From: Desulfocapsa sp. | GTDB lineage: Bacteria; Desulfobacterota; Desulfobulbia; Desulfobulbales; Desulfocapsaceae | Length of the DNA stretch: 45,254 bases | Reading direction: 5' to 3' | Assembly: GCA_013792135.1 (NCBI GenBank) | Contig: VMSP01000083.1 | Span: 1-45,254 of the forward strand | Part shown: positions 15,880 to 40,365 of the stretch, one piece after another | Position numbering within the stretch: the first letter of the stretch is position 1 | Layout of the letters: each line of letters opens with the position of its first letter | Notes under the pieces: generated by a model | Seen by the model: only the letters and a program-made list of their open reading frames with translations | Databases searched by the model: none | What the model was told of the DNA's origin: nothing | Made by a program: the position numbers and the translations under genes

Positions 15880-16080
15880 AGCATTACCTGTAAATATGCT
15901 CTGTAATTTTTTCGGGCGTAAATGGGTATTTTAATGGTTATCGGATGCAAATGGGTGTAATATTGGTTTCATGATTCAATCAGATACCATCCACATCACT
16001 CCAGAGATCCTTGGGCTAATAGCTGCCATTGATGAATTCAAAGGTGCATGGCGCGCATTAAGCACACTTGCGCCGGACCG
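15826..16080 (+). repeat. Left copy of the large inverted repeat (fic leader and 5' end)
   Basis: From about 15826 (ACTAAATAAAATTAAATATTTATT) through the fic leader and its first 35 codons, this stretch is closely similar to the reverse complement of 33865-34178. Identical blocks include GTGGCAGTTGTAGCATT, ATGCTCTGTAATTTTTT and AAATGGGTATTTTAATGGTT. The right copy is longer by an indel of several tens of bases. The two copies bracket the whole Fic to HsdR segment in opposite orientation. Confidence 0.85.
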
Positions 16081-19863: not shown

Positions 19864-20334
19864 ATGAAAACGAAATACAAGCAGATTGCCAGACGGCAGC
19901 TTGATGCCACCTTGGCCAAGTTCAGTGAGGTAAGGAAGGTACAGCTTCCACCAAAGGGATGGATACGGGCGGTGCGTGAGGCGCTAGGCATGTCCGGTAA
20001 GCAGCTGGCCGGGCGGCTCAATGTCTCTCAGCCCCGCGTTCACAAGCTGGAACAGAGCGAACCATCGGGCGCGTTGACACTCAAAACCATGCGCCAGGTG
20101 GCCGAGGCTCTGGATTGTGTCTTTGTGTATGCTCTTGTCCCCCGCTCAACGCTTGAGGAAACCGTCAGGGCGCAGGCCAGAGCAGTGGCTACCGAGCGGC
20201 TGCAGCGGGTATCCCACACCATGCTTCTTGAGGCGCAGGGGCTTTCTACTAAGGAGCAACAGGCTTCCCTGGATGACGCCATTGAGGAGTTGGCGCGGGA
20301 GACACCCAAGGATCTATGGGATATGAAGCCATGA
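19864..20334 (+). CDS. Mobile mystery protein A (XRE-type regulator)
   Basis: This 156-residue protein matches the family named mobile mystery protein A (TIGR02612 type). It has an N-terminal segment YKQIARRQLDATLAKF, a helix-turn-helix at about 42-72 (ALGMSGKQLAGRLNVSQPRVHKLE) and a conserved DCVFVYALVP. It always pairs with the Fic/Doc-domain protein B encoded next; their genes overlap at ATGA. It is probably the antitoxin-like and regulatory partner, judging by order and HTH. These pairs occur in mobile DNA, as here. Confidence 0.88.
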   Translation: MKTKYKQIARRQLDATLAKFSEVRKVQLPPKGWIRAVREALGMSGKQLAGRLNVSQPRVHKLEQSEPSGALTLKTMRQVAEALDCVFVYALVPRSTLEETVRAQARAVATERLQRVSHTMLLEAQGLSTKEQQASLDDAIEELARETPKDLWDMKP

Positions 20335-20915
20335 TATTCGATACCCCGGAGGGGGCAACCCCGCTTGATCCTGATGAAGCTGAGGGCTTGCTGCTCTCTC
20401 ACATCACCACGCGGGCCGAGCTGGATCGGTGGGAACAGGAAAACATCGCTGAGGCCGAAGCCTGGGCCTTCCGCCGCGCCCATCCTGACATCCTCACCGA
20501 TGGTTTTGCCAAGCGGTTGCATAAGCGGATGTTTGGTAATGTCTGGCGCTGGGCGGGATCGTACCGCAAGACCGGCAAGAATATTGGCCTACCCGCCTGG
20601 CAGATTGCCACGGAGCTGCGCAGCCTCTGCGATGATTGCGCGGCCTGGATTGAGCATGGTTCCTACCCACCGGACGAGATCGCCGTGCGCTTCCATCACC
20701 GGCTTACGGCCATCCATCCCTTTGCCAATGGCAATGGCCGTCATGCCCGGCTGATGACTGATATTATTCTGGCGCATCTGCTCAAGCAGCCCCGTTTTAC
20801 CTGGGGGAGCGGCAACCTGGTCAATACCGGGGATTGCCGGAAACAGTATATCAATGCCCTGCGTGCCGCCGATCGGTACGATTATGGGCCGTTGCTGGCT
20901 TTTGTGCGGTCTTAA
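20331..20915 (+). CDS. Mobile mystery protein B (Fic/Doc domain)
   Basis: This 194-residue Fic-fold enzyme has the intact motif HPFANGNGRHAR at 129-140, so nucleotidyl or phosphoryl transfer to a protein is expected. It begins MIFDTPEGATPLDPDEAEGL, the family hallmark. The ATG at 20331 overlaps the stop of protein A (ATGA), so I prefer it to the one 15 bases earlier. No inhibitory (S/T)xxxE(G/N) motif is seen in it, which fits control by the partner. It is the second Fic enzyme within 5 kb and is not closely similar to the first. Confidence 0.88.
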   Translation: MIFDTPEGATPLDPDEAEGLLLSHITTRAELDRWEQENIAEAEAWAFRRAHPDILTDGFAKRLHKRMFGNVWRWAGSYRKTGKNIGLPAWQIATELRSLCDDCAAWIEHGSYPPDEIAVRFHHRLTAIHPFANGNGRHARLMTDIILAHLLKQPRFTWGSGNLVNTGDCRKQYINALRAADRYDYGPLLAFVRS

Positions 20916-21867: not shown

Positions 21868-22375
21868 GAGAGGAAAAGGTTTTTGTTGTTGAATTATCTT
21901 ATGCGTGGAAAACCGCGTGAATATAGGAAATGATGTTGTCTTATTTGACAGTTAACACGTTTGTTATCGCGGTATTGGCTTCGGACACCATCTTTCGACC
22001 TTGAGATTAAGCAAGCGCCTATCCCAGTGTTCATAAATGGCCGCCGTTGCTCCTGAAAGGGCGGGGCGAGCGGTCAGTGTCCTCTTTTTCTTGCGTAGTT
22101 ACCCTCTCCAATTTCTTTGTAGTCACTTATTCCTGTTCTTTCCTTAGTCACTATAATGCTCTTTTCCTGTAGAATCGTCTGCGTGTCATATTACGGGAAA
22201 TTATATTTATAGGTGCCGCTATTATCAGGAGGTTTACATTGTGGTTTTTTTTCTGGCTATTTTGAGGTGATACTATTATCAGTTCGGTGTCAGCTACCTG
22301 TTCTGCCGGGGAGTTTTATCATTATAAACCTGTAGATGTGCCAAGTTTCAGACAAATCAATAATCAAGGGGAAGC
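21868..22375. other. Intergenic region before the restriction operon
   Basis: I find no gene in these 508 bases. TTGACA at about 21947 could be a -35 box, but no clear -10 follows. The 10-mer CTATTATCAG is repeated at 22219-22228 and 22273-22282. The first copy ends in AGGAGG, followed by a tiny ORF from GTG that stops within ten codons. The promoter of the restriction operon should lie here. Confidence 0.4.
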
Positions 22376-24703
22376 ATGGATCAAGCACAACTCAACTGGC
22401 TTACGAATTTTATCTGGAACATCGCTGACGATGTTCTCCGTGATGTCTTTGTGCGTGGCAAATACCGCGACGTTATTTTGCCGATGACCGTTCTCCGTCG
22501 TCTCGATGCTGTGCTGGAGCCAACGAAACAGGCCGTATTGGAGATGAAATCCGCGCTCGATCGTGAGCAGATCACCAATCAAGATGACGCGCTCCGTTCT
22601 GCTTCCGGTCAAGCATTTTACAACACCTCGCCATTCCTGTTGCGTGATCTCAAATCCCGCGCTACGCAGCAGAAGCTCAAGGATGACTTTGAGGCTTACC
22701 TTGATGGTTTTTCACCGAACGTCCAGGACATCCTGAATAACTTTGAGTTTCGCCATCAAATCCCCCGACTCTCCAAAGCCGACGCGCTGGGCCTGTTAAT
22801 CGAAAAGTTCCTCGACAAGGACGTCAACCTCAGCCCTTATGCGGTCGGCGACCTGCCTGCCCTCGATAATCACTCAATGGGGACGGTGTTCGAGGAACTC
22901 GTCCTCCGATTCAACGAGGATAACAACGAAGAGGCTGGCGAACACTGGACGCCCCGCGATGCCGTCCGACTTATGGCAAATCTCATGTTTCTGCCGGTGG
23001 CCGACAAGATCGAATCCGGCACCTACCTCCTTTACGACTGCGCCTGTGGCACTGGCGGTATGTTGACCGTCGCGGAGGAAACTCTTCAGCAAATCGCCAA
23101 AGCCCACGGCAAGCAGGTCGCCACGCACCTCTATGGTCAGGAGATCAACGGCGAGACTTACGCCATCTGCAAAGCCGACCTCCTGCTCAAAGGCGACGGC
23201 GACGCGGCGGATAACATCATCGGCGGCCCAGAGCACTCCACTCTCGCCAATGATGCCTTCCGCTCCCGCGAGTTCGACTTCATGCTCTCCAATCCGCCCT
23301 ACGGCAAAAGCTGGAAGAGCGACCTCGAACGCATGGGTGGCAAGAAGGAGCTGCATGACCCGCGCTTCGTCATTCAGCATGCGGGGGATTCGGAATACTC
23401 CCTCATCACCCGCTCCAGCGATGGCCAGATGCTCTTTCTTGCCAATATGCTCAGCAAAATGAAGCACGATACACCGCTCGGCAGCCGCATCGCTGAGGTA
23501 CACAACGGTTCATCTCTCTTCACCGGTGACGCCGGGCAGGGTGAGAGCAACATCCGCCGCTGGATCATCGAGAGCGACTGGCTGGAGGCCATTGTCGCCC
23601 TACCGCTGAACATGTTTTACAACACCGGTATCGCCACCTATGTTTGGGTGCTGACCAACCGGAAGCCCGAGCACCGTCAGGGTAAGGTGCAGCTTATTGA
23701 CGCCACCCAGTGGTTCGTTCCTCTACGCAAGAACATGGGCAAAAAAAACTGCCAACTCACCGCCGAGGACATTCAACGCATATGCGACACCTTTCTTGCC
23801 TGTAAGGAAAGCGAGCAGTCGAAAATATTCCCCAATGCCGCCTTTGGCTACTGGAAGGTGAAGGTCGAGCGTCCTCTGCGCCTCCACAGCCAGCTCTCCC
23901 GCCAGCGCATCGAGACCATGCGTTTCTCTTCCGGCGACGAAGATATCCGCGCCGCGCTCTACGATGAACTCGGCGACCCCCTTTTTGAAAACCCTGCCTC
24001 CGTCCGCAAGGAACTGGAGAAACTGGTCAATGACTTTGGCAAAGGTGACATTGATGAGGAAGACGGTGAAGGCGACGGCGGCGCGGCCAAGAAAACCCTG
24101 CCCGAAGCCAAGAAGAAGAAGCTTCTTAATGAAGCCACCTGGAAACGCGATGCCATGCTAGTCGAGATAGCCACTAGGCTTCGCGAAACCCTCGGCGGCG
24201 GCCTCTTTGAAGACCACAACGTTTTCCTGGAACGCGTTGGAGCTACGCTGAAGAAGCTCGCCCTCAAGCCCAGCGCCGCCGACCTGAAACTCATCATTAA
24301 CGCCATCAGTTGGCGTGTGGAAGATGCGTCCCGCGTCATCAAGAAGGTGCACAAGCCCGGGAAGGTTCAACCCGATCTGCTGCGCGGCCTCTTTGCAGCC
24401 GAGATCGATGGCAAGAGCTGTGTTGTCGAATATGAACCCGACAGCGAGCTCCGCGACCACGAGCAAATCCCGCTGCTCGAAGAAGGTGGGATCGAAGCCT
24501 TCATCCGCCGCGAGGTGTTGCCCTACACGCCCGATGCCTGGATCGTCGAAGCCGACACCAAGATCGGCTACGAAGTCAGCTTTACACGTCACTTCTACAA
24601 GCCTCCGGAACTCCGCACCCTTGCCCAGATCAGCGCCGACATCCTCGCACTGGAGCAGGAGACCGAAGGGTTACTCAGCGAAATCACCGGAGGGAAAGCC
24701 TAA
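22376..24703 (+). CDS. hsdM: Type I restriction-modification DNA methyltransferase HsdM
   Basis: This 775-residue N6-adenine methyltransferase subunit has an N-terminal HsdM_N helical domain (about 8-150), the conserved GEHWTPRD (188-195), SAM-binding motif ACGTGG (223-228) and catalytic NPPY (306-309). The C-terminal 260 residues go beyond the usual HsdM. They include a charged Lys/Glu/Gly linker ([14 protein letters not shown]) and a region resembling the part of type I enzymes that contacts the specificity subunit. With HsdS it methylates a bipartite target; with HsdR it restricts unmodified DNA. The ribosome site is AAGGGGAAGC before ATG. It opens a tightly packed six-ORF operon. Confidence 0.95.
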
Positions 24704-24705
24704 TA

Positions 24706-26502
24706 ATGTCCACTCAACGCTATTCCGTCACCCCGCATCCGATTGAAACCCTGCTCACCTGGGTAAAATCGGGCGAGATCGCCATTCCTGAAATCCAACG
24801 CCCCTTCGTTTGGGAGCCCACCAAGGTCCGCAATCTTCTCGACTCGCTTTATCAGGGCTACCCTGTCGGCTACCTCATTGCTTGGCGCAATCCCACCGTG
24901 AAGCTCAAGGATGGCACGCCGTCCGCCGGCAAACGCATTCTCATCGACGGCCAGCAGCGAGTCACCGCATTGATGGCCGGGTTGCTCGGGCGCGAGGTTC
25001 TGACCAAGGATTACGAGACCATTCGCATCCGCATCGCCTTTCACCCGTTGACCGAGAAGTTTGAGGTTGCCAACCCCGCCATCCGTAAAAACGTGGGGTG
25101 GATCGAGGATGTGGCTGCGGTCTTCGCTCCGGAAGCTGATTTGATCGAGCTGATCGAGGACTATGTCGCCAAGAACCCCACCGCTGACCGCAAGCAAGTC
25201 GGCAAGGTCCTGCAAAGACTCGGCAAGATCATCAACAACCACGTCGGCCTGATCGAACTGGCCGAAGACCTCGACATCGAAACGGTCACCGAGATTTTCA
25301 TCCGCGTGAACTCCGCCGGTGCTGAGCTTTCTCAGGCCGATTTCGCCATGTCGAAGATCGCCGCCAATGAAACTTACGGCGGCAACATGCTACGCAAGGC
25401 GATCGACTATTTCTGTCACCTCGCAGTTGCTCCTGAATTTTTTGGACGCATCGAGAAGGGCGACAAAGCCTTTGCAGCCTCAGAGTTCTTCCCGCAGATG
25501 CGCTGGCTCAAGGATGTGAACGACGACATCTACGACCCCACTTACACCGACATGCTGCGTGTGGCCTTCACTGCAGAGTTCGGGCGTGGCAAATTGGCTG
25601 ATCTTGTGGCGCTGCTATCGGGGCGCAACTTCGAGACCCGCCAGTATGAGGATGCCATCGCCGAGGCATCATTCGGACGGCTCAAGCAGGGCATCCTGCG
25701 ATTCATCAACAAAACACATTTCGAGCGCTTTACGATGATTGTGCGCTCGGCAGGCTTTATTACCAACAACCTAATCGGTGGGCAGAACGCCGTCAATTTC
25801 GCCTACATCCTTTACCTGCGAGGACGTGCTGAGAATGTTCCTGCCGCCGACCTTGAACGGCTCGTACGTCGTTGGTATGCCATGTCGATCTTACGTGGGC
25901 GCTACACCGGCAGCCCAGAGACGGCATTTGACTTCGACATCCGCCAGGTCGAGACGCGCGGTTTGGTCGCCTATGCCGATTCGGTGATTGAGAATGAATT
26001 ACCCGCTAGTTTTTGGACTGGAATGCTTCCCCAGCTCATGGATACCTCGTCCGGGCAGAGTCCTTACTTCCTCGCCTATAAGGCAGCGCAGGTGAAACTG
26101 GCGGACAAGGGCTTCCTCTCGCGCGACATCACCGTGCAAGACCTGCTGCTGAATCGAAGCGATGTGCACCACGTTTACCCACGCAACTACCTCAAAAAAC
26201 AGGGCCTCGCTCGCGGACGCTACAATCAGATCGCCAACTTCGTGCTGGCTCAAAGCGAGATCAATATCGGCATTGGAGACAAGCCTCCCGAAACCTACTT
26301 CAAGGAACTGGCCGAACAGTGTGCTGGCGGTCCAAAGAAGCACGGCGGCATTACGGAACGGGAGGAAGCATGCTCTAATCTGCGCATGAGCTGCCTGCCT
26401 GACTCGCTGCTCGACGGCGAAATCCCCGCCTATGACGACTTCCTTGAACAGCGGCGCAAACTCATGGCACAGAAAATCAAAACTTGGTTTGAGACACTCT
26501 GA
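24706..26502 (+). CDS. DUF262/DUF1524 (GmrSD-like) protein
   Basis: Residues 10-100 of this 598-residue protein carry the DUF262 (GmrS-type ParB-like) hallmarks: [28 protein letters not shown] and DGQQRVTAL (81-89). The C-terminal domain is DUF1524-like, an HNH-type nuclease with HHVYPRNYL (H488-H489) and a downstream Asn (NQIANFVL). GmrSD enzymes are type IV restriction systems that use NTP to cut DNA with glucosylated hydroxymethylcytosine. Here it sits inside a type I operon, two bases after hsdM. It may add attack on modified DNA to a system directed at unmodified DNA. Its stop overlaps the next tiny ORF (TGATG). Confidence 0.88.
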
Positions 26503-26597
26503 TGATTTACAGCCGCACCACCCGCAGCCAGCTCCATCGCCAAAAAGCTGAGCGTATCTGGAACCCTGAAGACCTGCTGAAAGGAGTCCTGCCATGA
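26502..26597 (+). CDS. 31-codon ORF coupled between DUF262 gene and hsdS
   Basis: The ORF reads [18 protein letters not shown] and on to a total of 31 codons. Its start overlaps the DUF262 stop (TGATG at 26500-26504). Its stop overlaps the hsdS start (ATGA at 26594-26597), and GGAG for hsdS lies inside it. It is basic and amphipathic. Two exact overlaps suggest it is translated, at least to carry ribosomes to hsdS; it may also be a tiny subunit. Not recognised. Confidence 0.5.
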   Translation: MIYSRTTRSQLHRQKAERIWNPEDLLKGVLP

Positions 26598-27976
26598 TCG
26601 AGGGGCTCAAGCCTTATGCAGAATACAAGGAGTCTAGGTTGCCGTGGCTCGGACGTTGCCCCAAGCACTGGAGCCTTCGGCGCACCAAGATTCTATTTCA
26701 AGAAAGAGTCCAAAAAGGCTTTCCGGATGAGCCGTTGCTGGCAGCGACGCAGACGAAAGGTGTGGTCAGAAAAGAAGACTACGAGACTAGAACCGTAACG
26801 GCGCAGAAGGATCTGCATCTGTTGAAGTTGGTCGAAATTGGCGACTACGTCATAAGTCTCCGGTCTTTCCAAGGCGGGATTGAAGTGGCACACTACCGAG
26901 GCATCATCAGTCCTGCCTATACAGTGCTGAAACCACGAAAGGCAGTGGCGACCGGCTACTACTCTCACTTCTTCAAGTCCAAACAGTTTATCGACAGTCT
27001 CAGCCTCTTCGTCACCGGCATTCGTGAAGGCCAGAACATCGATTATAGAAGGTTGAGTCGGGTAGAAATGCCGCTACCGCTCCCCGACGAACAAGTCGCC
27101 ATTGTGCGCTTTCTGGACCACGCGAATCGGAAGATCGACAGCTTCATCCGCGCCAAGCGGAAGCTGATTGGGCTGCTGAACGAGCAGAAGCAGGCCATCA
27201 TCCACCGCGCCGTCACTCGCGGCCTCAACCCCGACGTCCCACTCAAGCCCTCTGGTATCCCATGGATCGGCGACATTCCGGCGCATTGGGAGGCTCGCAA
27301 ACTTGGCTCATTATTTTTGCGACACGGAAGTGGAACGACGCCGTCTGGTGATGCCTATTACGGCGGCGGTGTTCCGTGGGTGATGAGCGGCGATCTGAAG
27401 GATGACCTTCTTGTCACTACGAAGCGAACTGTCACTGAATCGGCTCTGAAAGACTTCAGCGCATTGAAGCTCCACCCAAAGGGATCGTTACTCGTCGCGA
27501 TGTATGGTGCGACGATTGGCAAGACGGGCGTATTGAACATGGCGGCATGTTCCAATCAGGCTTGCTGCGCACTAGCCTCCCCACGCTCGACAGTTAATCC
27601 GGTGTTCATCCAATCCATCGTCATCATGGCACGCCCTCACTTGATGCAGCAAGCTTACGGGGGTGGACAACCGAACATAAATGCTGAGGTTGTTCGTTCT
27701 CTGCGAGTGCCGCTGCCGCCATTGGCTGAGCAAGATTCCATCCTTGCGTATTTGGATGGCGCAACAATTCCCCTCAACACTGCCATCGCCCGCACCGAAC
27801 GTGAAATCGCCCTGATGCAGGAATACCGTACCCGCCTGACCACCGACATCGTGACGGGCAAGCTGGACGTGCGGGAGGCAGCGGCGAAGTTGCCGGAGTT
27901 GCCATCCGATGATACCCCAGAACCAGTCGTCGACGAGCTTTTGGAAGAATCTGAACTGGAAACAAATCAAGAATGA
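26594..27976 (+). CDS. hsdS: Type I restriction specificity subunit HsdS
   Basis: This 460-residue DNA target-recognition subunit has two recognition domains (about 10-160 and 235-380), each followed by a conserved spacer helix: EQVAIVRFLDHANRKIDSFI (about 167-186) and EQDSILAYLDGATIPLNTAI (about 379-398). Repeated entry motifs LPWLGRCPKHW and IPWIGDIPAHW mark the two half-repeats. It determines a bipartite sequence and docks HsdM and HsdR. The acidic C-terminal tail (PVVDELLEESELETNQE) is unusual. Its stop overlaps the trlF start (ATGA at 27973-27976). Confidence 0.95.
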   Translation: MIEGLKPYAEYKESRLPWLGRCPKHWSLRRTKILFQERVQKGFPDEPLLAATQTKGVVRKEDYETRTVTAQKDLHLLKLVEIGDYVISLRSFQGGIEVAHYRGIISPAYTVLKPRKAVATGYYSHFFKSKQFIDSLSLFVTGIREGQNIDYRRLSRVEMPLPLPDEQVAIVRFLDHANRKIDSFIRAKRKLIGLLNEQKQAIIHRAVTRGLNPDVPLKPSGIPWIGDIPAHWEARKLGSLFLRHGSGTTPSGDAYYGGGVPWVMSGDLKDDLLVTTKRTVTESALKDFSALKLHPKGSLLVAMYGATIGKTGVLNMAACSNQACCALASPRSTVNPVFIQSIVIMARPHLMQQAYGGGQPNINAEVVRSLRVPLPPLAEQDSILAYLDGATIPLNTAIARTEREIALMQEYRTRLTTDIVTGKLDVREAAAKLPELPSDDTPEPVVDELLEESELETNQE

Positions 27977-30708
27977 GCAATTATCCAAAAGGATCAGAGT
28001 GGCGGCTGTGGGATCTCCACATCCATACCCCAGCCTCATACAACTACTTAGGAGGGCGTTTTGCTACGATGACGCCAGCCGAGAAGATTGCTGCGACAAA
28101 CCTGATCATTTCCAATATAAATGAAAGCGAGGTGGCCGTCTTTGCCATCAATGACTATTGGACTTTCGATGGCTATCTTGAACTGCGCAAGGCACATGAG
28201 GCCGGTGAAACAATTCATAAAGCCGTGTTCCCGGCGATTGAGCTCCGGATCGAATCAGCATCTAATCACCGCCTGAACATCCACGTCATTCTGTCGGATA
28301 AACTCACGGTTCAGCAGCTGAGTGATTTTAAGGGCCAGCTCAGGCTCAGACTGATTGACCGTCCTCTCTCGGATGAGGCCCTCATAGAATATGCGCGAAG
28401 GCTTGATGCTGCCAAAGCCAAGAAGCATGGCGCACAGGATGGCTATCTGGATGATCCTGTTGTACTTGCCCAGCTTGGTGCAGAGACGGCAGAGATTACA
28501 AAGGCATCATTTGAAACAGCATTAAAAACCATCCCCCACGACCATCGGTTAGTCATGGTGCCTTACGACTGCTATGGCGGTATGGAAAAAATCGATTGGG
28601 AAGTCCAGCCGGCCGAAGACCTCTATTTCATGCAACTGGTCGATGTTGTTGAGGACCGCAATAAGAAGAACATCGACTTGTTTGCCTGTCGTGAAACACC
28701 TGCGAACAGAGCTTTCATCGAGAACTTCAAGGCTACCATTGGAGGCCGCCCAAAGCCTTGCGTCTCTGGTAGCGATGGCCATTCTATTGCCTCGTTTAAG
28801 ACATGGCGTACGGAAACAAATACCAAGAAAACGTGGATCAAGGCAGACCCAACTTTTGAAGGACTTCGGCAAATCATTTTTGAACCAACTGCCCGAGTGC
28901 GAGTTCAGGAGAAAAATCCTGGACTGAGCTACACAAAACCATTTTTTAGTTCGGTTTCGATTGCGAACGAGATGTCGCCCTTTCCCGACAGCTTACTTTA
29001 TGAGAACCCCCGTTTCGGTGAGCAGTCGAGGCTCTTACTGAACAGTGACCTTGTTTGTGTGATTGGAGGGCGCGGAACCGGAAAAAGTTGTCTGGTTGAT
29101 TATCTCGGAAAGGCATTCGGCCCAGCTTCCAAAACGATGCCTGACGTTCTGAGCGAAGACTTCACCGTGGTCTTCAATAAGGATCTTGCGAGTACAGCCA
29201 CCCATCACGCGAAGGAGGGAGCAGAACTCCCCTTCGTCTATATCTCGCAAAATGAGGTGAAGACGAAGGTCACGACAGGAACCGTCGGCGATGAGATCAA
29301 AAAGATGCTTGGTGTGCAGGGCCTGTCGTTTGACAGCGAAGTGGACACCAAGATCCAAGACTTCCGGTCTGCTGTAGATAAGTACAAAATTTGGTTCAAA
29401 CAGACGAACGAAAAGGGGGAGGCGATTCATGACCAAGCGAGCATCGAATCCCAGATCGTCCGGAATCAGAGCCTCCTTGAGTCGATTACGACTGAGCAAA
29501 ACAAGGAGAAGCTGGAGCGCTTCACCTCCAATGTTTCAAAGATTGCGGGGGCTAAAGACAAAGCAAGTCGTCTTAGTTTCCTGAAAGAGGAACTGGAGAC
29601 GTTTAAGGCTGAGTTTGACCTAAAATCCAGCGCCATTGACGCCACGATTCCACTACTTGACATCACTGCACAGGCGGAGGCCATTCGTCTACGTGGCGAG
29701 CAGGCTGAGGCAGAAGTTGCGACCTGTGAACAAGACAATACCCAAATCCACGCTGATTTTGCCCAAGTTTATACAGGGGATCTCGCCGGATTGTTGCAAA
29801 ACGCCGAGTCATACAGAAATGCTATTGAGAATCTCAAGATCAGCATCTCCAAGATTGTGGCGAAACAAGAGGAACTTGTCGCCGCAGAAGCAAAGCGTAA
29901 GACGATTCCTCAGCTTATTGCAAATGAACTTATCCGCCATAAGAAAACCATCAATGAGAGATGGGAAACTATTCAACAGGGACAACCTGATTGGACGCCG
30001 GAGCAGAAAGACCTGATGAATAGGATACTCGCGGATCGTCAGATTACCCTTGAGGGACGCATCATTTTTGATCTGCCGGTATTTCTCTTAAAGCTCAAAG
30101 AAGTCTTGAGTTTGAGATCGTTTAAGGCAACGAACGTACTTTCCACCGAGGATCGAATCCAGCAGCATTTCAATATAACTGATACGAAGTCATTTTTGGA
30201 GTTCATGCAGAGTAAACTCCATCAGGTAGAGGAGGACGGCTATGTTTCAGGGGATCTTGTCGGGCTCTTTTATGATGTCGCACAGAGATCGACGTTTCTC
30301 CGTGTCGAACCAGTCATTTCCTACAGTGGTCAGCCATTGGAGCGTTTGTCAGTTGGCCAAAAAGGAACTGTTTACCTGTGCCTTAAACTGGCCACCCAGG
30401 CATTCACTCAGCCATTGATCTTTGATCAACCGGAAGACGATCTCGACAACGAGTTCATCATTGAAGAACTGGTCGAAATTTTTTGCGGGATTAAACAGTT
30501 TCGGCAGGTCATCCTTGTCACCCACAATGCGAACCTAGTTGTCAATGCCGACGCCGAGCAGGTGGTGGTTGCCGAAAATAACAATGGAGTGCTGAAATAC
30601 ACTTCTGGGAGTCTAGAGGACCCTGTGACAAATAAGGCGGTTCGCCGGATTCTGGAAGGTGGCGATGAAGCTTTCTTGAAGCGCGAGCTGCGATACAACC
30701 TTAAATAG
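27973..30708 (+). CDS. TrlF-type PHP-domain ATPase
   Basis: This 911-residue protein has an N-terminal PHP-like phosphoesterase domain with DLHIHTP (14-20) and GSDGH (266-270) metal ligands. An SMC/ABC-like ATPase follows, with Walker A GGRGTGKS (365-372), a long coiled-coil region (about 480-660), and Walker B LIFDQPEDD (815-823) followed by LVTHN. This is the TrlF family layout. TrlF-like proteins occur with restriction and anti-plasmid or phage systems. The PHP part may be a nuclease gated by the SMC-like motor. It overlaps hsdS by four bases and precedes hsdR by 21, so it belongs to this operon. Confidence 0.88.
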   Translation: MSNYPKGSEWRLWDLHIHTPASYNYLGGRFATMTPAEKIAATNLIISNINESEVAVFAINDYWTFDGYLELRKAHEAGETIHKAVFPAIELRIESASNHRLNIHVILSDKLTVQQLSDFKGQLRLRLIDRPLSDEALIEYARRLDAAKAKKHGAQDGYLDDPVVLAQLGAETAEITKASFETALKTIPHDHRLVMVPYDCYGGMEKIDWEVQPAEDLYFMQLVDVVEDRNKKNIDLFACRETPANRAFIENFKATIGGRPKPCVSGSDGHSIASFKTWRTETNTKKTWIKADPTFEGLRQIIFEPTARVRVQEKNPGLSYTKPFFSSVSIANEMSPFPDSLLYENPRFGEQSRLLLNSDLVCVIGGRGTGKSCLVDYLGKAFGPASKTMPDVLSEDFTVVFNKDLASTATHHAKEGAELPFVYISQNEVKTKVTTGTVGDEIKKMLGVQGLSFDSEVDTKIQDFRSAVDKYKIWFKQTNEKGEAIHDQASIESQIVRNQSLLESITTEQNKEKLERFTSNVSKIAGAKDKASRLSFLKEELETFKAEFDLKSSAIDATIPLLDITAQAEAIRLRGEQAEAEVATCEQDNTQIHADFAQVYTGDLAGLLQNAESYRNAIENLKISISKIVAKQEELVAAEAKRKTIPQLIANELIRHKKTINERWETIQQGQPDWTPEQKDLMNRILADRQITLEGRIIFDLPVFLLKLKEVLSLRSFKATNVLSTEDRIQQHFNITDTKSFLEFMQSKLHQVEEDGYVSGDLVGLFYDVAQRSTFLRVEPVISYSGQPLERLSVGQKGTVYLCLKLATQAFTQPLIFDQPEDDLDNEFIIEELVEIFCGIKQFRQVILVTHNANLVVNADAEQVVVAENNNGVLKYTSGSLEDPVTNKAVRRILEGGDEAFLKRELRYNLK

Positions 30709-30729
30709 AAACTCAACCAGGACAACGCC

Positions 30730-33700
30730 ATGACCACCGACACCACCGAAAAAGGACTCGAAAGCCTGATCATGCGACACATGACGGGGACGGATGGCTT
30801 GTTATCTGGAGTGACGGGAGTTATGGCCGCCGAGCCTCCCGTGCCCTACGGCGGCAGCGGCTGGTTTGCAGGCAGTTCAGCGGCCTATGATCGCGAGTAC
30901 GCAGTGGATAGCGAGCACCTGCTTGCCTTCCTCCTGACCACCCAGCCGGAGGAGTATGCGAAGCTCGGGATTGACGATTACAAAAACACCCACGGCATGG
31001 CGCGGCAGAAGTTTCTCGCCCGTCTGCAAGGGGAGATCACCCGGCGCGGGGTGATTGATGTGTTTCGACACGGGATCAAGCACGGGCCGCTCAGCTTTGA
31101 CCTGTTCTATGGCACGCCCTCACCGGAGAATGTGAAGGCTGTGGCCCGCCATGCGACGAACAGGTTCAGTATTACCCGGCAACTCCACTACAGTCGGGAG
31201 GAAACAAAGAGGGCGCTGGACTTGTGCGCCTTCATCAACGGACTGCCGGTGGCGACCTTTGAACTGAAGAACAGCCTGACCAAGCAAACGGTCGAGGATG
31301 CAGTTGAGCAATACAAACGTGACCGCGATCCCCGTGAGACCTTGTTCCAGTTTGGCCGCTGCGTCGTCCATTTCGCGGTGGATGACCATGAGGTGGCGAT
31401 GTGCACGGCCCTCAAGGGCACGAAGGGCACGGCAAAGGAATCGTGGTTTCTGCCTTTCAACCAGGGCTGGAACGATGGAGCTGGCAACCCGCCAAACCCG
31501 AATGGCATCAAAACCGACTACCTGTGGAAAAGCATTCTTTCCCCAGCCCGTCTCACCGAGATTCTGGAGAACTATGCCCAGATAGTGACTGAGGTGAACA
31601 AGAAGACGGGGAAGAAGAAGCAGGTGCAGATTTTCCCGCGCTTTCATCAGCTTGAAGTGGTGCGAAACATCCTCGCTGATGTCGCCGCCGTTGGTGCGGG
31701 CCACCGCTACCTTATTCAGCATTCGGCTGGCAGCGGAAAATCGAACTCCATTGCCTGGCTGGCGCATCAGTTGATCAGCCTGCGCAAAGATGGGACCGAG
31801 GTCTTTGACTCGATCATCATCATCACCGACCGCCGCCTCCTTGACAAACAGATCCGCGAGACGATCAAGGGCTTTGCCCAGGTCGGCAGCATTATCGGCG
31901 CAGTGAAGGAGGGCGCGGGCCACTCGAAGGCGGAGCAGCTCGCCAAGTTCCTCAAGGAAGGCAAGAAGATCATCATCTCCACGGTGCAGACCTTTCCATT
32001 CGTCCTCGACAGCATTGGCGAGGAGCATCGGGGCGGGAAGTTCGCCATCATCATCGACGAAGCGCACTCCAGTCAGGGCGGCAAGACTTCCACCGCCGTC
32101 AGTCAGGCGCTGGCGGACAGCGAGGACGAGATCAACGACGCTCTGGAACAGCGTATAAAATCCCGCAAGCTTGCCAAGAATGCCAGCTACTTCGCCTTCA
32201 CCGCCACGCCCAAGAACAAGACGCTGGAGATGTTCGGCGTGCCGTATTCCGTAGGTGACGAGGTGAAGCACCGCCCATTCCACGGCTACACGATGAAACA
32301 GGCGATCCAGGAGGGCTTCATTCTCGACGTGCTCAAGCACTACACGCCGGTGGAGAGCTACTACCGGCTCGCCAAGACCGTCGAGGGTGACCCGGAATAT
32401 GACGTGAAGAGGGCGCGCAAGAAGCTGCGCGTCTATGTGGAGAGCCATAGTAAGGCCATCCGTGATAAGGCCGAGATCATGGTGGACCATTTTCTCGAAC
32501 AGGTGATCGGTCAGCACAAGATTGGTGGACAGGCGCGGGCCATGGTCGTCACCGGTAGTATTCAGCGGGCGATTGAGTATTTCGTTGCCTTCCGGGACTA
32601 CCTCACGGTATTGAAAAGCCCTTACCAGCCCATTGTTGCCTTCTCCGGCGAACCTGAATACAAAGGTGAGAAGGTCAGCGAATCCAAGCTGAACGGCTTC
32701 CCGAGCAACGACATTCCTGACAAAATTCAGGAAGACCCGTATCGCTTCCTCATCTGCGCGGACAAGTTTCAGACCGGCTACGACGAGCCGCTCCTGCACA
32801 CGATGTATGTGGACAAGGTGCTTTCTGGTATCAAAGCCGTGCAGACGCTCTCCCGCCTGAACCGGGCCCACCCGAAGAAGCACGACGTCTTCGTCCTCGA
32901 TTTCCAAAATGACACGGAGATGATTGAGAAGTCATTCGCCGACTATTACCGTACAACGATCCTCAGCAAGGAGACGGATCCCAATAAGCTTCACACTCTG
33001 AAAGGTGAACTCGACCAGTATCAGGTTTACTCGCCTGAACAGATTTCCTCCCTGGTGGATCTCTATCTGGGTGGTGCTGACCGCGACAAGCTGGATCCCA
33101 TCCTTGACGCCTGTGTAGCCGTGTATGTGAGCGACCTCGACGAAGACGGGCAGGTTGATTTCAAAGGCAAGGCCAAGGCGTTCACCCGCACCTACGATTT
33201 TCTGGCCACGATCCTGCCTTACGGCGTACAGGATTGGGAAAAGCTCTCGATCTTCCTGAACTTCCTAATCTCGAAGCTGCCAGCCCCCATCGAAGAAGAC
33301 CTCGCTAAAGGCATCCTCGAAGCCATCGACATGGACAGCTACCGCGCCGAGAAGAAGGCAACCATGGCGATAGCCCTGCCTGACGCGGATGCAGAGATCG
33401 AGCCGGTGCCGACTTCAGGAGGCGGGCGGAAGCCCGAGCCGGAAATGGACAGGCTTTCAAACATCGTAAAGGAGTTCAACAACCAGTTCGGCGGACTCTT
33501 TGCTGATGCAAAGCGGATGGAGGAGCGTATCACCGGTGAGATCCCGAAGAAAGTCTCCGCCGATCAAGCCTACCAGAACGCGAAGAAAAACTCCGACCGT
33601 CAGAACGCTCGCATCGAACACGACAAGGCGCTGAAGCGTGTTATCACGGCGCTCTTTACTGACGATGCCCAACTCTTCAAACAGTTTCAAGACAATGATT

Positions 33701-33753
33701 CCTTCCGCCACTGGATGACGGACACGGTTTTCGGGATGACCTATGATGAATAG
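30730..33753 (+). CDS. hsdR: Type I restriction endonuclease subunit HsdR
   Basis: This 1007-residue motor and nuclease subunit has an N-terminal PD-(D/E)XK domain, with LDLCAFINGLPVATFELKN (catalytic D164, E178, K180). The SF2 translocase follows with Walker A AGSGKS (333-338), DEAH (443-446), FTATP and a motif VI region SRLNRAHPKK. The C-terminus is a helical docking domain. It pulls DNA through the HsdM-HsdS complex and cuts at collision. All catalytic residues are present. It ends the operon; no clear terminator follows, and the inverted fic remnant begins about 110 bases on. Confidence 0.95.
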   Translation: MTTDTTEKGLESLIMRHMTGTDGLLSGVTGVMAAEPPVPYGGSGWFAGSSAAYDREYAVDSEHLLAFLLTTQPEEYAKLGIDDYKNTHGMARQKFLARLQGEITRRGVIDVFRHGIKHGPLSFDLFYGTPSPENVKAVARHATNRFSITRQLHYSREETKRALDLCAFINGLPVATFELKNSLTKQTVEDAVEQYKRDRDPRETLFQFGRCVVHFAVDDHEVAMCTALKGTKGTAKESWFLPFNQGWNDGAGNPPNPNGIKTDYLWKSILSPARLTEILENYAQIVTEVNKKTGKKKQVQIFPRFHQLEVVRNILADVAAVGAGHRYLIQHSAGSGKSNSIAWLAHQLISLRKDGTEVFDSIIIITDRRLLDKQIRETIKGFAQVGSIIGAVKEGAGHSKAEQLAKFLKEGKKIIISTVQTFPFVLDSIGEEHRGGKFAIIIDEAHSSQGGKTSTAVSQALADSEDEINDALEQRIKSRKLAKNASYFAFTATPKNKTLEMFGVPYSVGDEVKHRPFHGYTMKQAIQEGFILDVLKHYTPVESYYRLAKTVEGDPEYDVKRARKKLRVYVESHSKAIRDKAEIMVDHFLEQVIGQHKIGGQARAMVVTGSIQRAIEYFVAFRDYLTVLKSPYQPIVAFSGEPEYKGEKVSESKLNGFPSNDIPDKIQEDPYRFLICADKFQTGYDEPLLHTMYVDKVLSGIKAVQTLSRLNRAHPKKHDVFVLDFQNDTEMIEKSFADYYRTTILSKETDPNKLHTLKGELDQYQVYSPEQISSLVDLYLGGADRDKLDPILDACVAVYVSDLDEDGQVDFKGKAKAFTRTYDFLATILPYGVQDWEKLSIFLNFLISKLPAPIEEDLAKGILEAIDMDSYRAEKKATMAIALPDADAEIEPVPTSGGGRKPEPEMDRLSNIVKEFNNQFGGLFADAKRMEERITGEIPKKVSADQAYQNAKKNSDRQNARIEHDKALKRVITALFTDDAQLFKQFQDNDSFRHWMTDTVFGMTYDE

Positions 33754-35225: not shown

Positions 35226-38200
35226 ATGAGTTCAACTTTCTACCTTCCACGTAGCCTTTCAAACAATGACAGGACATACACTGAAACGGAGTTGCTCGCC
35301 GCTTCTAATTACGTCGTTATATTGGCCGAACCCGGCGGTGGAAAAACTGAACTTATGGGGAGTCTTGCCCAGCAGTTGGGCGCAACAGTTGTTACAGCGA
35401 GCAAATTCGGATACGTGGGAGCAAAAGCAAAAAATATTCCGCTGGTGATTGACGCATTTGATGAGTTGGCAAAAGTAGATGCCTCCGGCATTAATAGACT
35501 TCTTAGTCAAGCTGAAGCTGCCAACCCAACCCACGTTTACTTGTCGAGCCGATCAAGCGAGTGGGACAACGCCACAACAAACGTTTTCAAAGACTTTTTG
35601 GGGCACGCACCTTTGGTGGCTAGGCTATCCGAGTTTGATGAAACGGAACAGCGGGCGATCTTTGATCATCATGTGCCAAGAGAGGACTTCGCAGCGTTCC
35701 AGGCCGAGGTTGCTCGATTTGATTTGGAAACGCTTCTCCCCAACCCTCAGTTTCTTAAACTCTTTGCTGACGCCTATATCGAGAGCGAAAGGCGCTTCAC
35801 CGACAAACGATCAATCTTCGCACAAGCGGTCGAGCGTCTGGCGAAGGAAGCAAACCCCAAGGTAACGAGAATCAATCCGACACTTTCGACCACTCAAAAA
35901 GTCAACATATCGTCAGAAGTTTTCACCAAGCTCTTGTTGTCCGGTGCAGAAGGAGTCTGCACAAGCGAAGCCACCGAAAATAGGATGTATCCATTGCTGG
36001 CGTCACTATTTGACGGCGACACTGCAGCTGACGGTATCCTCGCAACTCGGCTATTCAAGCCGGGAGATAGTGCGGACCAGCATCGCCCGGTTCACAAGAT
36101 TGTCGCTGAATACTGCGCAGCGAACTATCTCGTCAAGCGGATGGCAGCCCCATCGGACCCGTTAACCCTACCCAAGTGCCTGCCTATTATCGCACCAAAC
36201 TCTACAGTACGGGATGAACTCCGAGGGTTGCTAGGCTGGATGGCGGCACTCGGCAACAAACCTATCGAAGAATCCGCAATCGAACTTGATCCTTATGCAG
36301 TGCTGGCGAACGGCGATCCTTCCCAACTTGAACATTCGTCCAAGCGCCTGCTCGTAAAGCGGCTGAAAGATATTGAAGTCAAGGACCCTTACTTCCGAAG
36401 GGGCGATTCCTGGCGCCAGTTCAGTGTTGCTGGTTTCTTCACCCCAGACGTTGTGGAAGAGATCAAACCTCTTCTTGTGACTGGGAGTGACGGGCACTTG
36501 CGTGATCTGATCCTTGAACTTTTGGCAGGGTCACCAGCAATCGAACAGGTAAGAGTTGAGTTGCGACAACTCGTTTTAACACCGGGTGAAAGCAAAAACA
36601 GTCGCTTGTTAGCGAATAGGTGTTTACTAGATATCGCTAACGATGACCATCACTCTGACTTGGTTGTTCTTATTTCTGAAGCCAGTAATAATTCACTCAA
36701 AATTGCAGCTGAGACTATCGAAACTCTAGGCCAGGAGACTTTTGAGCGAGCTTATCTTGTAGATTTCTTTCGGGCTTGTGTAAACCTTTACCCGAACCAC
36801 CAGGATAGACATGAGCGTGCAATAGGCGAGCGCTACTTCGTTAAGAAATTCATCAACGGGCTAGACTTTGCGACTACTGAGATGCTCTTAGATGAGTTGA
36901 CCAAGGACCTAGCATGCATATGCGGAAAGAAGCCGTATGAATGTGACTGCCGAAACGGCATAAGCAAGATTGTGGGGTCAATGATTGATCGGTACTTTGA
37001 TCTTGCAAAACCGCCGTTTGATCCAATACGGGTTTGGCAATGGGTCGGAAGTCTAAATTTCCATGAGGCCAAAGCTGCAGACCAAAGCAAGGCGGTCCAA
37101 GTGCTTCAAAAGGACGACAGCCTGCGCCAGGGGATTATCGCTCATGTGTTCGGGAAACTGACTGACCGTGACGAGATTTTCGAGACCCGGCTTGGTAAGT
37201 TCAATAATTGGCAATCCCACACCGGCCTTAGTTTTCGTCCAGATGATCAAAAATATATAATCGATCTGGCCTTTGAGACTGACAACCCGGATTTATGGGT
37301 GAGTTTCATGGCTAGACATATGTACCATCTAAATAAAGAAGGTCGAGGTGCAGACAGTTTGCGACGTCACATGCGTGAACAAGCACTGGAAAAGCCCTCA
37401 TTCATGCGAGAGTGGGCTCAGACTAACAGAGCTACAGAGCAACAATTCAAACGAGAAAAACAAGAATCTCATGTCAGGCATATTCGAAGAATGGGGCGCC
37501 GCCGCAGGAAACAAGATGAAATTCGTGCAGCAAATATCAAATATGTCTTAGACAACCGGGAGCTTGTCGAAGGTGGTCGCCATTGGGGGTACTTGGCTCG
37601 CTTCGCAGATCTTGTACTTATGGCCCCGGACAAAATTGAGCATGAGTTTGGCGATGAGGCGCTCATTAGGAATGCGCTCAGAAATTGTCTCGATTTTATA
37701 GCTCCGCACGTCCCTGATCTTCTCAAACTCGCTGAACTACACTGTGCCTCGAAGCAGCATCAATCGATAAGAATTCTTTATGCGGCTTGCTTGGAGATCA
37801 TTCGCGGCAAAGGCAACCTAGAAGAAGTTGATCTTCGCCTAATCAGAGCACTGCGTACTCAAATTGACCGGGGTTACAGCGCCATTTCCGAAGAGGACTG
37901 TGCAGCGCTGAAGACCGAAGTTAACCGCCTAATTCTCCCTGATAGTGATAGTGCCGAGAAATTTCTCCGGCAATACGTTGAGCCACAACTCGTACAGCCG
38001 GAATGCGCTCATCCTGAAGTTTGGTTATTGCGTAGCGATAAGAGCTTCAACCATTTGCGCCCCATGCTATCAATTGAATGGCTTAGAGGTTTTCGCGAAT
38101 TGGCTTTTAGCCCATTGGGTACACTGTTTGAGATTGCAGCTCAGTATGGCAATCGGGACGATTTGAAAGAAATCATTGCGGAGCGTTGCGCACAGTTCAT

Positions 38201-39257
38201 GTCCGACTGGCCCAACCTGACTGAGAATGAAGATATCGAGCAAAAGCGCACTTTCTGGTTAGTACGTGCGTTGTACTTTTTCAACGATACGCCTGAAACA
38301 TACTGGAGCTGGCTCAAAGCAGATAAAGACACTCTGTTTGTACTTTACGAGCGGTCTGGGCGAATGAACCATGGTGATCATCCCTATTGGCCCAAGCTCA
38401 CATCAAACAAAGTAGAAGCCATTCTAGATGCCTTCATCGACAAATGGCCTAAGGTAGACCTGCCGAGCCACTGGGGGACGGGAAGCCCAAAAGAAGAGAA
38501 CGCATACCGCTTCTTGACCGAAGTGATTTGGTCAATTAATTCAGATGATCCCGATGATGCTATCCCTGTCCTTGATCGGCTTCTTTTTGATCCACGGTTC
38601 ACTGACTTGCATAAGAATTTGAAGAGCATACATGCCGGTCAAGTGAGAAAGAAAGCACTGAGAGATTTTGAACCGCCGACACCACAGGAAATTGTAAGTC
38701 GACTGGACCGCGACACAGTAGTTACCGTGGAAGGTCTGCGTCAACTCGTGATCCAAGAACTTCATGACTTCCAGAAAGCTATTGATGGTGGAGAGTTCAA
38801 CTCCGCAGATCGTTTTTATGAGAAAGGTGAACGGCTAGGCGAAGTACGGTCTACTGAGATTATTGCTGAGCGCCTCAATTTGAGGCTTGAGCCGCAAGGC
38901 ATCTCTGTGACGCCGGAACATCAGCTAAAGGGAGCAAAGCGGAGTGATTTTACGGCGACCAAAATGATTGGCGGCAAAAGACGATTGCTTGTTACAGAGG
39001 TAAAAGGGCAGTGGCATAAAGAGCTATACACAGCCGCTTCCACTCAACTGCATGAACGCTACTCCATCCACCCAGACGCAGAGCAACAGGGCATTTTCCT
39101 CGCAATCTGGTTTGGCGGAGACGAAAAGGTTGCTGGATGTAAAAAACACGGCATCGGAAGTGCTCAGGAACTAAAAAGCAGCATCGAAGCGACGCTACCG
39201 CCAGAAATCACAGGGTTAATTGATGTGTTCGTTTTGGATGTGTCCAAGCCTAAATAG
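35226..39257 (+). CDS. 1343-aa P-loop ATPase with C-terminal PD-(D/E)XK nuclease
   Basis: The N-terminus has a NACHT/STAND-like P-loop with Walker A AEPGGGKT (34-41), Walker B LVIDAFDE (73-80) and a sensor-like LSSRSSEWD (about 100-108). A helical region of about 1000 residues, probably repeats, follows, with no membrane segment. The C-terminal about 110 residues hold D1241 (KRSDFTA) and E1258-V-K1260 (TEVKG), the D...ExK core of a restriction-type nuclease. This is the plan of a phage-sensing STAND protein with a nuclease effector, but with the effector at the opposite end from most Avs proteins. It is alone between two attC-like sites. At 4 kb it would be an exceptionally long integron cassette. 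Not assignable to a named defence type. Confidence 0.75.
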   Translation: MSSTFYLPRSLSNNDRTYTETELLAASNYVVILAEPGGGKTELMGSLAQQLGATVVTASKFGYVGAKAKNIPLVIDAFDELAKVDASGINRLLSQAEAANPTHVYLSSRSSEWDNATTNVFKDFLGHAPLVARLSEFDETEQRAIFDHHVPREDFAAFQAEVARFDLETLLPNPQFLKLFADAYIESERRFTDKRSIFAQAVERLAKEANPKVTRINPTLSTTQKVNISSEVFTKLLLSGAEGVCTSEATENRMYPLLASLFDGDTAADGILATRLFKPGDSADQHRPVHKIVAEYCAANYLVKRMAAPSDPLTLPKCLPIIAPNSTVRDELRGLLGWMAALGNKPIEESAIELDPYAVLANGDPSQLEHSSKRLLVKRLKDIEVKDPYFRRGDSWRQFSVAGFFTPDVVEEIKPLLVTGSDGHLRDLILELLAGSPAIEQVRVELRQLVLTPGESKNSRLLANRCLLDIANDDHHSDLVVLISEASNNSLKIAAETIETLGQETFERAYLVDFFRACVNLYPNHQDRHERAIGERYFVKKFINGLDFATTEMLLDELTKDLACICGKKPYECDCRNGISKIVGSMIDRYFDLAKPPFDPIRVWQWVGSLNFHEAKAADQSKAVQVLQKDDSLRQGIIAHVFGKLTDRDEIFETRLGKFNNWQSHTGLSFRPDDQKYIIDLAFETDNPDLWVSFMARHMYHLNKEGRGADSLRRHMREQALEKPSFMREWAQTNRATEQQFKREKQESHVRHIRRMGRRRRKQDEIRAANIKYVLDNRELVEGGRHWGYLARFADLVLMAPDKIEHEFGDEALIRNALRNCLDFIAPHVPDLLKLAELHCASKQHQSIRILYAACLEIIRGKGNLEEVDLRLIRALRTQIDRGYSAISEEDCAALKTEVNRLILPDSDSAEKFLRQYVEPQLVQPECAHPEVWLLRSDKSFNHLRPMLSIEWLRGFRELAFSPLGTLFEIAAQYGNRDDLKEIIAERCAQFMSDWPNLTENEDIEQKRTFWLVRALYFFNDTPETYWSWLKADKDTLFVLYERSGRMNHGDHPYWPKLTSNKVEAILDAFIDKWPKVDLPSHWGTGSPKEENAYRFLTEVIWSINSDDPDDAIPVLDRLLFDPRFTDLHKNLKSIHAGQVRKKALRDFEPPTPQEIVSRLDRDTVVTVEGLRQLVIQELHDFQKAIDGGEFNSADRFYEKGERLGEVRSTEIIAERLNLRLEPQGISVTPEHQLKGAKRSDFTATKMIGGKRRLLVTEVKGQWHKELYTAASTQLHERYSIHPDAEQQGIFLAIWFGGDEKVAGCKKHGIGSAQELKSSIEATLPPEITGLIDVFVLDVSKPK

Positions 39258-40252: not shown

Positions 40253-40365
40253 ACATACTATCGAATTATGGTCTGTAAAATTTGCTAAGTCAGTCGGAAG
40301 TCACTCTAAAAGTAAAACTTACATGCGTGACCCTTCAAACGTTAATAAAAGAGGAGGCGGAAGAG

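Follow-up and report, generated by a model that had tools for sequence, protein, structure and literature searches.

Type I restriction-modification (R-M) operons, built from the genes hsdM, hsdS and hsdR, are already known from individual cases to carry embedded genes (PrrC, RloF, TgvAB, DarTG2), and the hsdS-hsdR interval has been suggested as a hotspot for them. Here we describe such an operon at positions 22376-33753 of a 45,254-nucleotide stretch of DNA from Desulfocapsa sp. (contig VMSP01000083.1, assembly GCA_013792135.1), the whole of which is referred to as the window; a GmrSD-like gene lies between its hsdM and hsdS genes and a trlF gene between hsdS and hsdR. We read this operon, with a probability of about 0.7, as a platform with two exchangeable cargo slots, designated A (hsdM-hsdS) and B (hsdS-hsdR). 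Restriction of unmethylated DNA by HsdMSR is established for the family, R-linked and M-linked open reading frames (ORFs) in Campylobacter were reportedly described by Miller et al. in 2005, and embedded defence genes are said to be the subject of a 2024 preprint by Payne et al.

Among the described systems, TgvAB of Vibrio cholerae, encoded on VPI-2 between hsdS and hsdR, protects E. coli from T-even phages (PMC11411939; PMC12409362), and homologues of GmrSD often occur near type I genes, and in Campylobacter RloF occupies the hsdS-hsdR interval (PMC4619093). The same site has been proposed as a potential recombination hotspot, and in four genomes it is occupied by genes for a putative RNA-binding protein and an AAA-like ATPase (PMC12255303), a pair that may correspond to TrlG/TrlF. 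The name TrlF itself comes from the TRL locus (trlR-trlF-trlG) of temperature restriction in Photorhabdus, where mutations in temperature-tolerant mutants fell mostly in trlG and never in trlF (PMC7554251). TrlR (PMC7554251) and RptR (PMC12255303) are both putative regulators of 79 amino acids and may be of the same family. In the parts of the open-access literature consulted, we found no account of two slots with differing cargo preference, or of a cargo scar.

Operon anatomy and cargo turnover

The operon and its two slots comprise the following features:

22376-24703, + strand: hsdM, type I DNA methyltransferase subunit, 775 amino acids (Pfam N6_Mtase 172 bits, HsdM_N 87 bits; PADLOC type I methyltransferase 841 bits)
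24706-26502, + strand: slot A cargo, GmrSD-like enzyme with DUF262 and a predicted HNH domain, 598 amino acids (Pfam GmrSD_N, that is DUF262)
26502-26597, + strand: 31-codon ORF, an open frame and putative 3' fossil of another slot A GmrSD gene
26594-27976, + strand: hsdS, specificity subunit, 460 amino acids (Pfam Methylase_S; PADLOC Specificity_I 390 bits)
27973-30708, + strand: slot B cargo, TrlF-family protein with PHP domain and ABC-type ATPase, 911 amino acids (NCBIfam NF045780)
30730-33753, + strand: hsdR, restriction/translocase subunit, 1007 amino acids (Pfam HSDR_N, SWI2_SNF2, T1R_D3-like)
24694-26590: slot A, as delimited by loss of DNA similarity to locus L170 (blastn: hsdM similarity ends at 24693 and resumes at 26591)
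27904-30723: slot B, delimited in the same way (last hsdS patch ends at 27903, hsdR resumes at 30724)

A first-pass annotation of this DNA had reported six closely packed ORFs, and both their coordinates and the five junctions are confirmed, all on the + strand: in order, a gap of 2 bp, overlaps of 1, 4 and 4 bp, and a gap of 21 bp. All five long same-strand ORFs (460-1007 amino acids) pass curated Pfam or NCBIfam cut-offs, which argues that the arrangement is not a product of chance. Pfam matches above cut-off for HsdM, HsdS and HsdR (methylase, specificity and HSDR_N/translocase domains) occur in one operon, which on these matches looks like an intact type I R-M operon and would be transcribed as a unit; the NCBIfam score of hsdR (186 bits) falls below its cut-off of 284.55.

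The boundaries of both slots were drawn against L170, a Zoogloea locus in which HsdM is 88% identical and slot A is empty. Similarity to the window extends over 22375-24693, returns as hsdS patches at 27073-27303 and 27770-27903, and then covers 30724-33741, placing the slot limits 10 bases before the end of hsdM, 3 before the start of hsdS, 73 before the end of hsdS and 6 before the start of hsdR. L170 and three other loci (L171, L172, L208) have HsdM 86-88% identical to that of the window and no DUF262 match. In L173 and L174, hsdM and DUF262 form one shared stretch with the window, to 26489 and 26502, respectively. Since DUF262 is 90% identical and HsdM 69% in L192, while HsdM is 86% and DUF262 79% identical in L173, the two genes have different histories. 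A Meiothermus plasmid (L042) carries hsdM, DUF262 (75% identical), hsdS, DUF4433, macro-domain, AAA and DUF4276 genes, and hsdR, in that order; the DUF4433 and macro-domain genes are presumably DarT and DarG.

These comparisons belong to a survey of 109 loci: the window, L042, 27 stretches from a genome search, including two with HsdM 44-48% identical that belong to the same genome as the window, and 80 from a contig search, the latter being the best 80 of at least 548 relatives, with HsdM 59-88% identical in the best segment. No HsdM frame was found in L115, L177, L232 or L240, and one more locus failed the score/length filter; the HsdM tree, a quick one built from the first 505 residues without a mixture model, has 104 rows, with slot A readable in 90 and slot B in 73. 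Of the 80 contig-search loci, 64 had a readable slot A, filled in 45, and 48 a readable slot B, filled in 21. The taxa given in the record titles are proteobacteria, Verrucomicrobia, Nitrospirota, Planctomycetota, Chlorobi, cyanobacteria, actinobacteria, Chloroflexi and Methanosarcina, with the proviso that many of the contigs are metagenome-assembled and organism names may be wrong. Cargo was labelled by blastp against a chosen library; representatives took their names from Pfam or NCBIfam, and DarTG was assigned from its resemblance to the L042 genes. Some ORFs are still without a label, and certain labelled pieces, such as the TrlG-like ones of L112, are fragmentary.

The cargo found in these relatives includes YhcG/DUF1016, PRTase-CE (which passes the NCBIfam model of a phosphoribosyltransferase-like anti-phage protein), Fic, RhuM-Fic, Abi_2, HerA, PLDc, M78 peptidases, DarTG, GmrSD enzymes of two additional types, and TrlG-like AlbA_2/HATPase proteins. 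Placed on the HsdM tree, the 28 cargo states of slot A require 51 changes over 90 rows (minimum 27; 200 shuffles, mean 56.9, range 51-60), and the 20 states of slot B require 31 over 73 rows (minimum 19; 200 shuffles, mean 34.9, range 32-36). Cargo turnover is high in both slots. The pairing of DUF262 with TrlF is found in the window only, among eight DUF262-bearing operons with a readable slot B. To the question, raised with the first-pass annotation, of whether the extra genes occur only here, the two give different answers: DUF262 occupies slot A in 10 of the 90 operons, window included, whereas TrlF comes close to being confined to this locus, appearing among HsdM relatives in slot B of the window and slot A of L122, and otherwise in the more distant L139. 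The window's own genome has two further type I operons whose HsdM is related, L136 (C115) with a slot B protein like DUF4062-HATPase and L137 (C111) with a Fic protein in slot B.

Several cargo families are distributed unevenly between the slots. DUF262 is absent from all 73 readable B slots; PRTase-CE occurs in 10 of 90 A slots and 0 of 73 B slots, YhcG in 18 and 3, DarTG in 0 and 7, and TrlG-like proteins in 0 and 11. Taken together, DUF262, other GmrSD, YhcG and PRTase-CE stand at 41 in A against 3 in B, and TrlG-like plus DarTG at 0 against 18 (Fisher p 7e-13, which is not a strict probability because the surveyed rows are related, and for which the families were grouped after the counts had been seen). 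Presence on the tree requires 9 changes for DUF262, 9 for PRTase-CE, 12 for YhcG, 5 for DarTG and 10 for TrlG-like proteins. A set of 48 viral-contig loci (slot A readable in 38, slot B in 28) gave DUF262, PRTase-CE and YhcG only in A, and DarTG and TrlG-like proteins only in B; this set contains near-duplicates (L428-L430; L411/L412) and partly overlaps the first, L411 and L235 (both 90,209 bases) seeming to be the same contig.

Scans for sigma-70 promoters and terminators gave matches no better than shuffle level. Upstream of hsdM, no same-strand ORF of at least 70 codons was found in 508 bases. Two 25-bp direct repeats (22204-22228 and 22258-22282, 80% alike, 54 bp apart) in this region are possible operator sites. 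An antisense ORF of 595 codons within hsdR (31120-32907, - strand) is likely a by-product of the high third-codon guanine-plus-cytosine (GC) content of that gene.

The slot A enzyme, the 31-codon ORF and TrlF

The slot A protein matches Pfam PF03235 (GmrSD_N) at 99 bits against a cut-off of 33. An alignment of this protein with 24 homologues, at identities down to 24%, shows D81-R85 (DGQQR), H488, H489, N511 and N520 to be invariant in all 25 sequences, and the N-terminal QR, DGQQR and FxxxN motifs are present (the motifs in nine sequences, the residues invariant in 25). An AlphaFold2 model from nine near-identical sequences had a predicted local distance difference test score (pLDDT) of 47 and was discarded in favor of one from the 25 diverse sequences, with a mean pLDDT of 88. 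The top Foldseek match of this model is BrxU (expectation value, E, 1e-13), and VIA-align gave Z 16.8 for BrxU over 478 residues (18-20% identity in alignments), Z 11.4 for DndI 9jfl (root mean square deviation, rmsd, 5.7 over 421 residues) and Z 11.4 for the C-terminal chain of SspE (rmsd 5.9, 325 residues); residues ~433-581 also match Cas9 chains at Z 3.7-4.6, weak by the tool's own note. By predicted fold and conserved residues, the protein carries a C-terminal DUF1524-type HNH (His-Me) nuclease domain. The DUF262/DUF1524 label given in the first-pass annotation is thus right in substance, as the invariant H/N residues and the predicted BrxU/SspE fold indicate, although Pfam itself finds no DUF1524 in the 598-residue protein even at E ≤ 10. 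By analogy with BrxU and TgvAB, the most likely target of cleavage by the enzyme is DNA carrying modified bases.

Between this gene and hsdS, the 31-codon ORF matches no family in Pfam, PADLOC or NCBIfam. Residues 8-28 of the encoded peptide share 81% identity with the C-terminal end of the 681-residue slot A protein of L184 (E 8e-11, compared with 6e-4 for the best of 300 shuffles), with DNA 77% identical over 73 bp; among the matches listed, strong ones besides the window are confined to L184, L244, L246 and L197. The proteins matched at all four loci comprise GmrSD_N plus GmrSD_C by Pfam, and hsdS follows the gene in L184, L244 and L246, the L197 contig ending soon after it. The stop codon of the ORF overlaps the hsdS ATG, and the same stop/start overlap is present in L184. 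Base by base, the junction resembles L192, on the DUF262 side, to ~26500 and L184 from ~26521, a pattern which argues that slot A earlier held another GmrSD enzyme whose tail was kept when DUF262 arrived. From these sequence matches, the ORF is best explained as the 3' remnant of another GmrSD gene, one found in slot A at other loci; the start/stop overlaps of the ORF may couple translation of DUF262 and hsdS. As a candidate conserved gene it was rejected, being missing from the DUF262-hsdS junctions of L173, L174, L192, L042, L230, L235, L239, L243 and L245. A distant plasmid search with its DNA returned three records only, 35% covered, at E 0.8.

The slot B protein matches NF045780 at 462 bits (cut-off 350) over residues 6-909 and profile positions 1-944, which bears out the earlier placement of a TrlF between hsdS and hsdR of a type I operon. 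Walker A, signature and Walker B motifs are retained; in the PHP site HxH, E90 and D268 are kept, and the TDH motif reads NDY. This change is common to L139 (NDY) and L050 (MDY), and further members of the family vary too. A sequence search of the PDB with TrlF returned only Rad50/SMC proteins, at E 0.06-0.1. Third-codon GC is 0.54 in trlF, against 0.63-0.74 in the hsd genes and 0.70 in DUF262, consistent with a separate arrival of trlF.

Among 345 genomes of the phylum, 22 TrlF places exceeded the NCBIfam cut-off (the contigs of L145 and L154 being shorter than 6 kb), and a TrlG-like AlbA_2/HATPase gene is adjacent in 14 of these. Flanking hsd genes are found at three of the 22, in slot B of the window, slot A of L122 and slot B of L139; the last belongs to a different type I operon, named by Pfam, more distant from the window's HsdM family. 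L152, with hsdM- and hsdS-like genes ~5 kb upstream of trlF, was excluded from the count of type I slots. A single-sequence TrlF scan of the viral contigs found no relative; viral contig L292 shows the order HsdM-HsdS-gap-TrlF-TrlG, and L256 has TrlF beside hsd-like genes on the opposite strand.

Around the operon, a gene for EruA, a NACHT-domain antiphage protein of 1343 amino acids, lies at 35226-39257 (+ strand), 1.5 kb downstream of hsdR; it was identified by NF058535 (1467 bits, cut-off 1000), with no match in Pfam or PADLOC. An Abi_alpha (abortive infection) protein follows at 40282-41001 (+ strand; Pfam 64.7 bits). On the upstream side are a phage-type integrase (9648-10856, + strand), a Fic gene (15971-17020, + strand) and a helix-turn-helix (HTH) plus Fic pair (19864-20915, + strand). 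With these integrase, Fic and HTH-Fic genes, the region has the look of a mobile defence island.

Alternative readings of the arrangement

If the operon is such a platform, HsdM and HsdS would methylate self DNA and HsdR, with them, would cut unmethylated incoming DNA, while the single-chain GmrSD/BrxU-type enzyme of slot A would cut phage DNA that escapes the type I enzyme through its modified bases. TrlF, with its ABC/SMC-type ATPase and PHP domain, would be a second-line effector triggered by infection or by inhibition of R-M; a back-up role is the most likely one, with PrrC and DarTG2 as models. Cargo would probably be exchanged through homologous recombination within the conserved hsd genes on either side of each slot, and the 31-codon ORF would be the tail of an earlier slot A occupant, left by such an exchange and now bridging DUF262 and hsdS. 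A composite barrier against unmodified and hypermodified DNA, proposed in the first-pass annotation, is plausible by analogy with TgvAB, PrrC and DarTG2. The part of that proposal which stands is the presence of a GmrSD-like enzyme and TrlF in one type I operon, with TgvAB, shown to restrict hypermodified T-even phages, as precedent (PMC11411939); its fixed six-gene unit does not, as the slots hold changing cargo, the small ORF is apparently a scar, and the exact combination is found only here.

A wider proposal is more tentative, and we consider it slightly less probable than not. Here the window would represent a widespread two-port type I subfamily, with port A taking mainly effectors of nuclease type (GmrSD, YhcG) and PRTase-CE, port B receiving DarTG, TrlG-like and possibly further effectors of an abortive or guarded kind, and a few families such as TrlF using either; recombination in the anchors would leave scars, and the port would help to predict which second-line response an unknown gene provides. 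If so, one could predict an anti-phage function for unknown genes in these slots, with the slot perhaps pointing to the kind of effector. What this chassis family shows is the combination of two slots with partly different cargo preferences, in records from many phyla, and a fossil recording a swap.

A number of observations weigh against the platform. Empty slots are common (30 of 90 for A, 37 of 73 for B). In slot A the observed number of cargo changes matches the smallest value among the 200 shuffles, and in slot B it is smaller than in any of them, which argues that some of the cargo descends together with the chassis. Slot preference does not extend to all families, because TrlF (1 in A, 1 in B), RhuM-Fic (4, 2), Fic (2, 1) and DUF4062-HATPase (2, 1) occur in both. 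The superposition of the predicted DUF262 structure on BrxU has an rmsd near 20 across the whole chain, with domains differently arranged, and hhalign of the window DUF262 family with the GmrSD_C-bearing family aligned the N-terminal domain only. Finally, the PHP site of TrlF is altered (TDH to NDY), and it may be doubted that this protein works alone, since the TrlG-like neighbor usual for TrlF is missing here.

Among the alternatives, a narrower form of the platform, in which TrlF guards the type I enzyme as PrrC does, silent with intact HsdMSR and released by an anti-restriction protein (Ocr, Stp), appears somewhat unlikely. PrrC, which bears ABC-ATPase motifs (PMC2610378), is likewise encoded within a type I operon (PMC3874165), and DarTG and TrlG-like genes are found only in slot B; however, 19 of the 22 TrlF places lie somewhere other than between hsd genes (two of these on the contigs under 6 kb), and TrlF also occurs in slot A (L122). 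Ordinary clustering in a defence island, with insertions tolerated at hsd junctions without functional or regulatory coupling, would accord with the defence genes nearby (EruA at 35226-39257; Abi_alpha) and with the occurrence of DUF262 and TrlF outside type I operons, but it is unlikely given the confinement of some families to one slot and cargo that runs in the direction of the operon, often overlapping by a few bases. A co-adapted six-gene composite would have DUF262, the small ORF and TrlF functioning inside the type I complex. It draws on the close packing and overlaps, on the 10 operons of 90, the window's among them, that place DUF262 beside this HsdM family, and on some inheritance of cargo with the chassis, but is improbable given close HsdM relatives with other cargo or with neither DUF262 nor TrlF, an apparent remnant as its small ORF, and a DUF262-TrlF pair in one of the eight DUF262-bearing operons with a readable slot B.

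Comparison with known systems

EcoprrI-PrrC, compared by location alone, likewise has an accessory ATPase gene in a type I operon (PMC3874165, PMC2610378), although PrrC is an anticodon nuclease (PMC3874165, PMC2610378) and TrlF has a PHP domain. In the RptR-RMS-DarTG2-M48 island of enteropathogenic E. coli, foreign defence genes also lie between hsdS and hsdR (PMC12255303); that island carries toxin-antitoxin cargo and a 79-residue repressor (PMC12255303), whereas the window uses slot A as well and shows no same-strand frame of 70 codons or longer in the 508 bases ahead of hsdM. In the TRL locus, a TrlF-family ATPase is accompanied by TrlG and a small putative regulator (PMC7554251), whereas trlF of the window has no TrlG-like neighbor and is flanked by hsd genes, hsdR following it, and does not constitute a TrlF-TrlG module.

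The slot A enzyme is predicted to resemble BrxU (PDB 7p9k, 7p9m), a GmrSD-family type IV enzyme, in fold over nearly the whole chain, and it has the same motif order; BrxU accompanies BREX (PMC11411939), whereas the window enzyme resides in a type I operon and has a different domain arrangement. With TgvAB it shares a GmrSD-type identity, DGQQR and HNH motifs, and a position inside an hsdM-hsdS-hsdR operon (PMC11411939). TgvAB consists of two proteins, both required, encoded at the hsdS-hsdR site, with DUF1524 in the second; the operon described here has a single GmrSD-like gene, the adjacent 31-codon ORF being a probable remnant, and its one protein is encoded at the hsdM-hsdS site, with TrlF in slot B.

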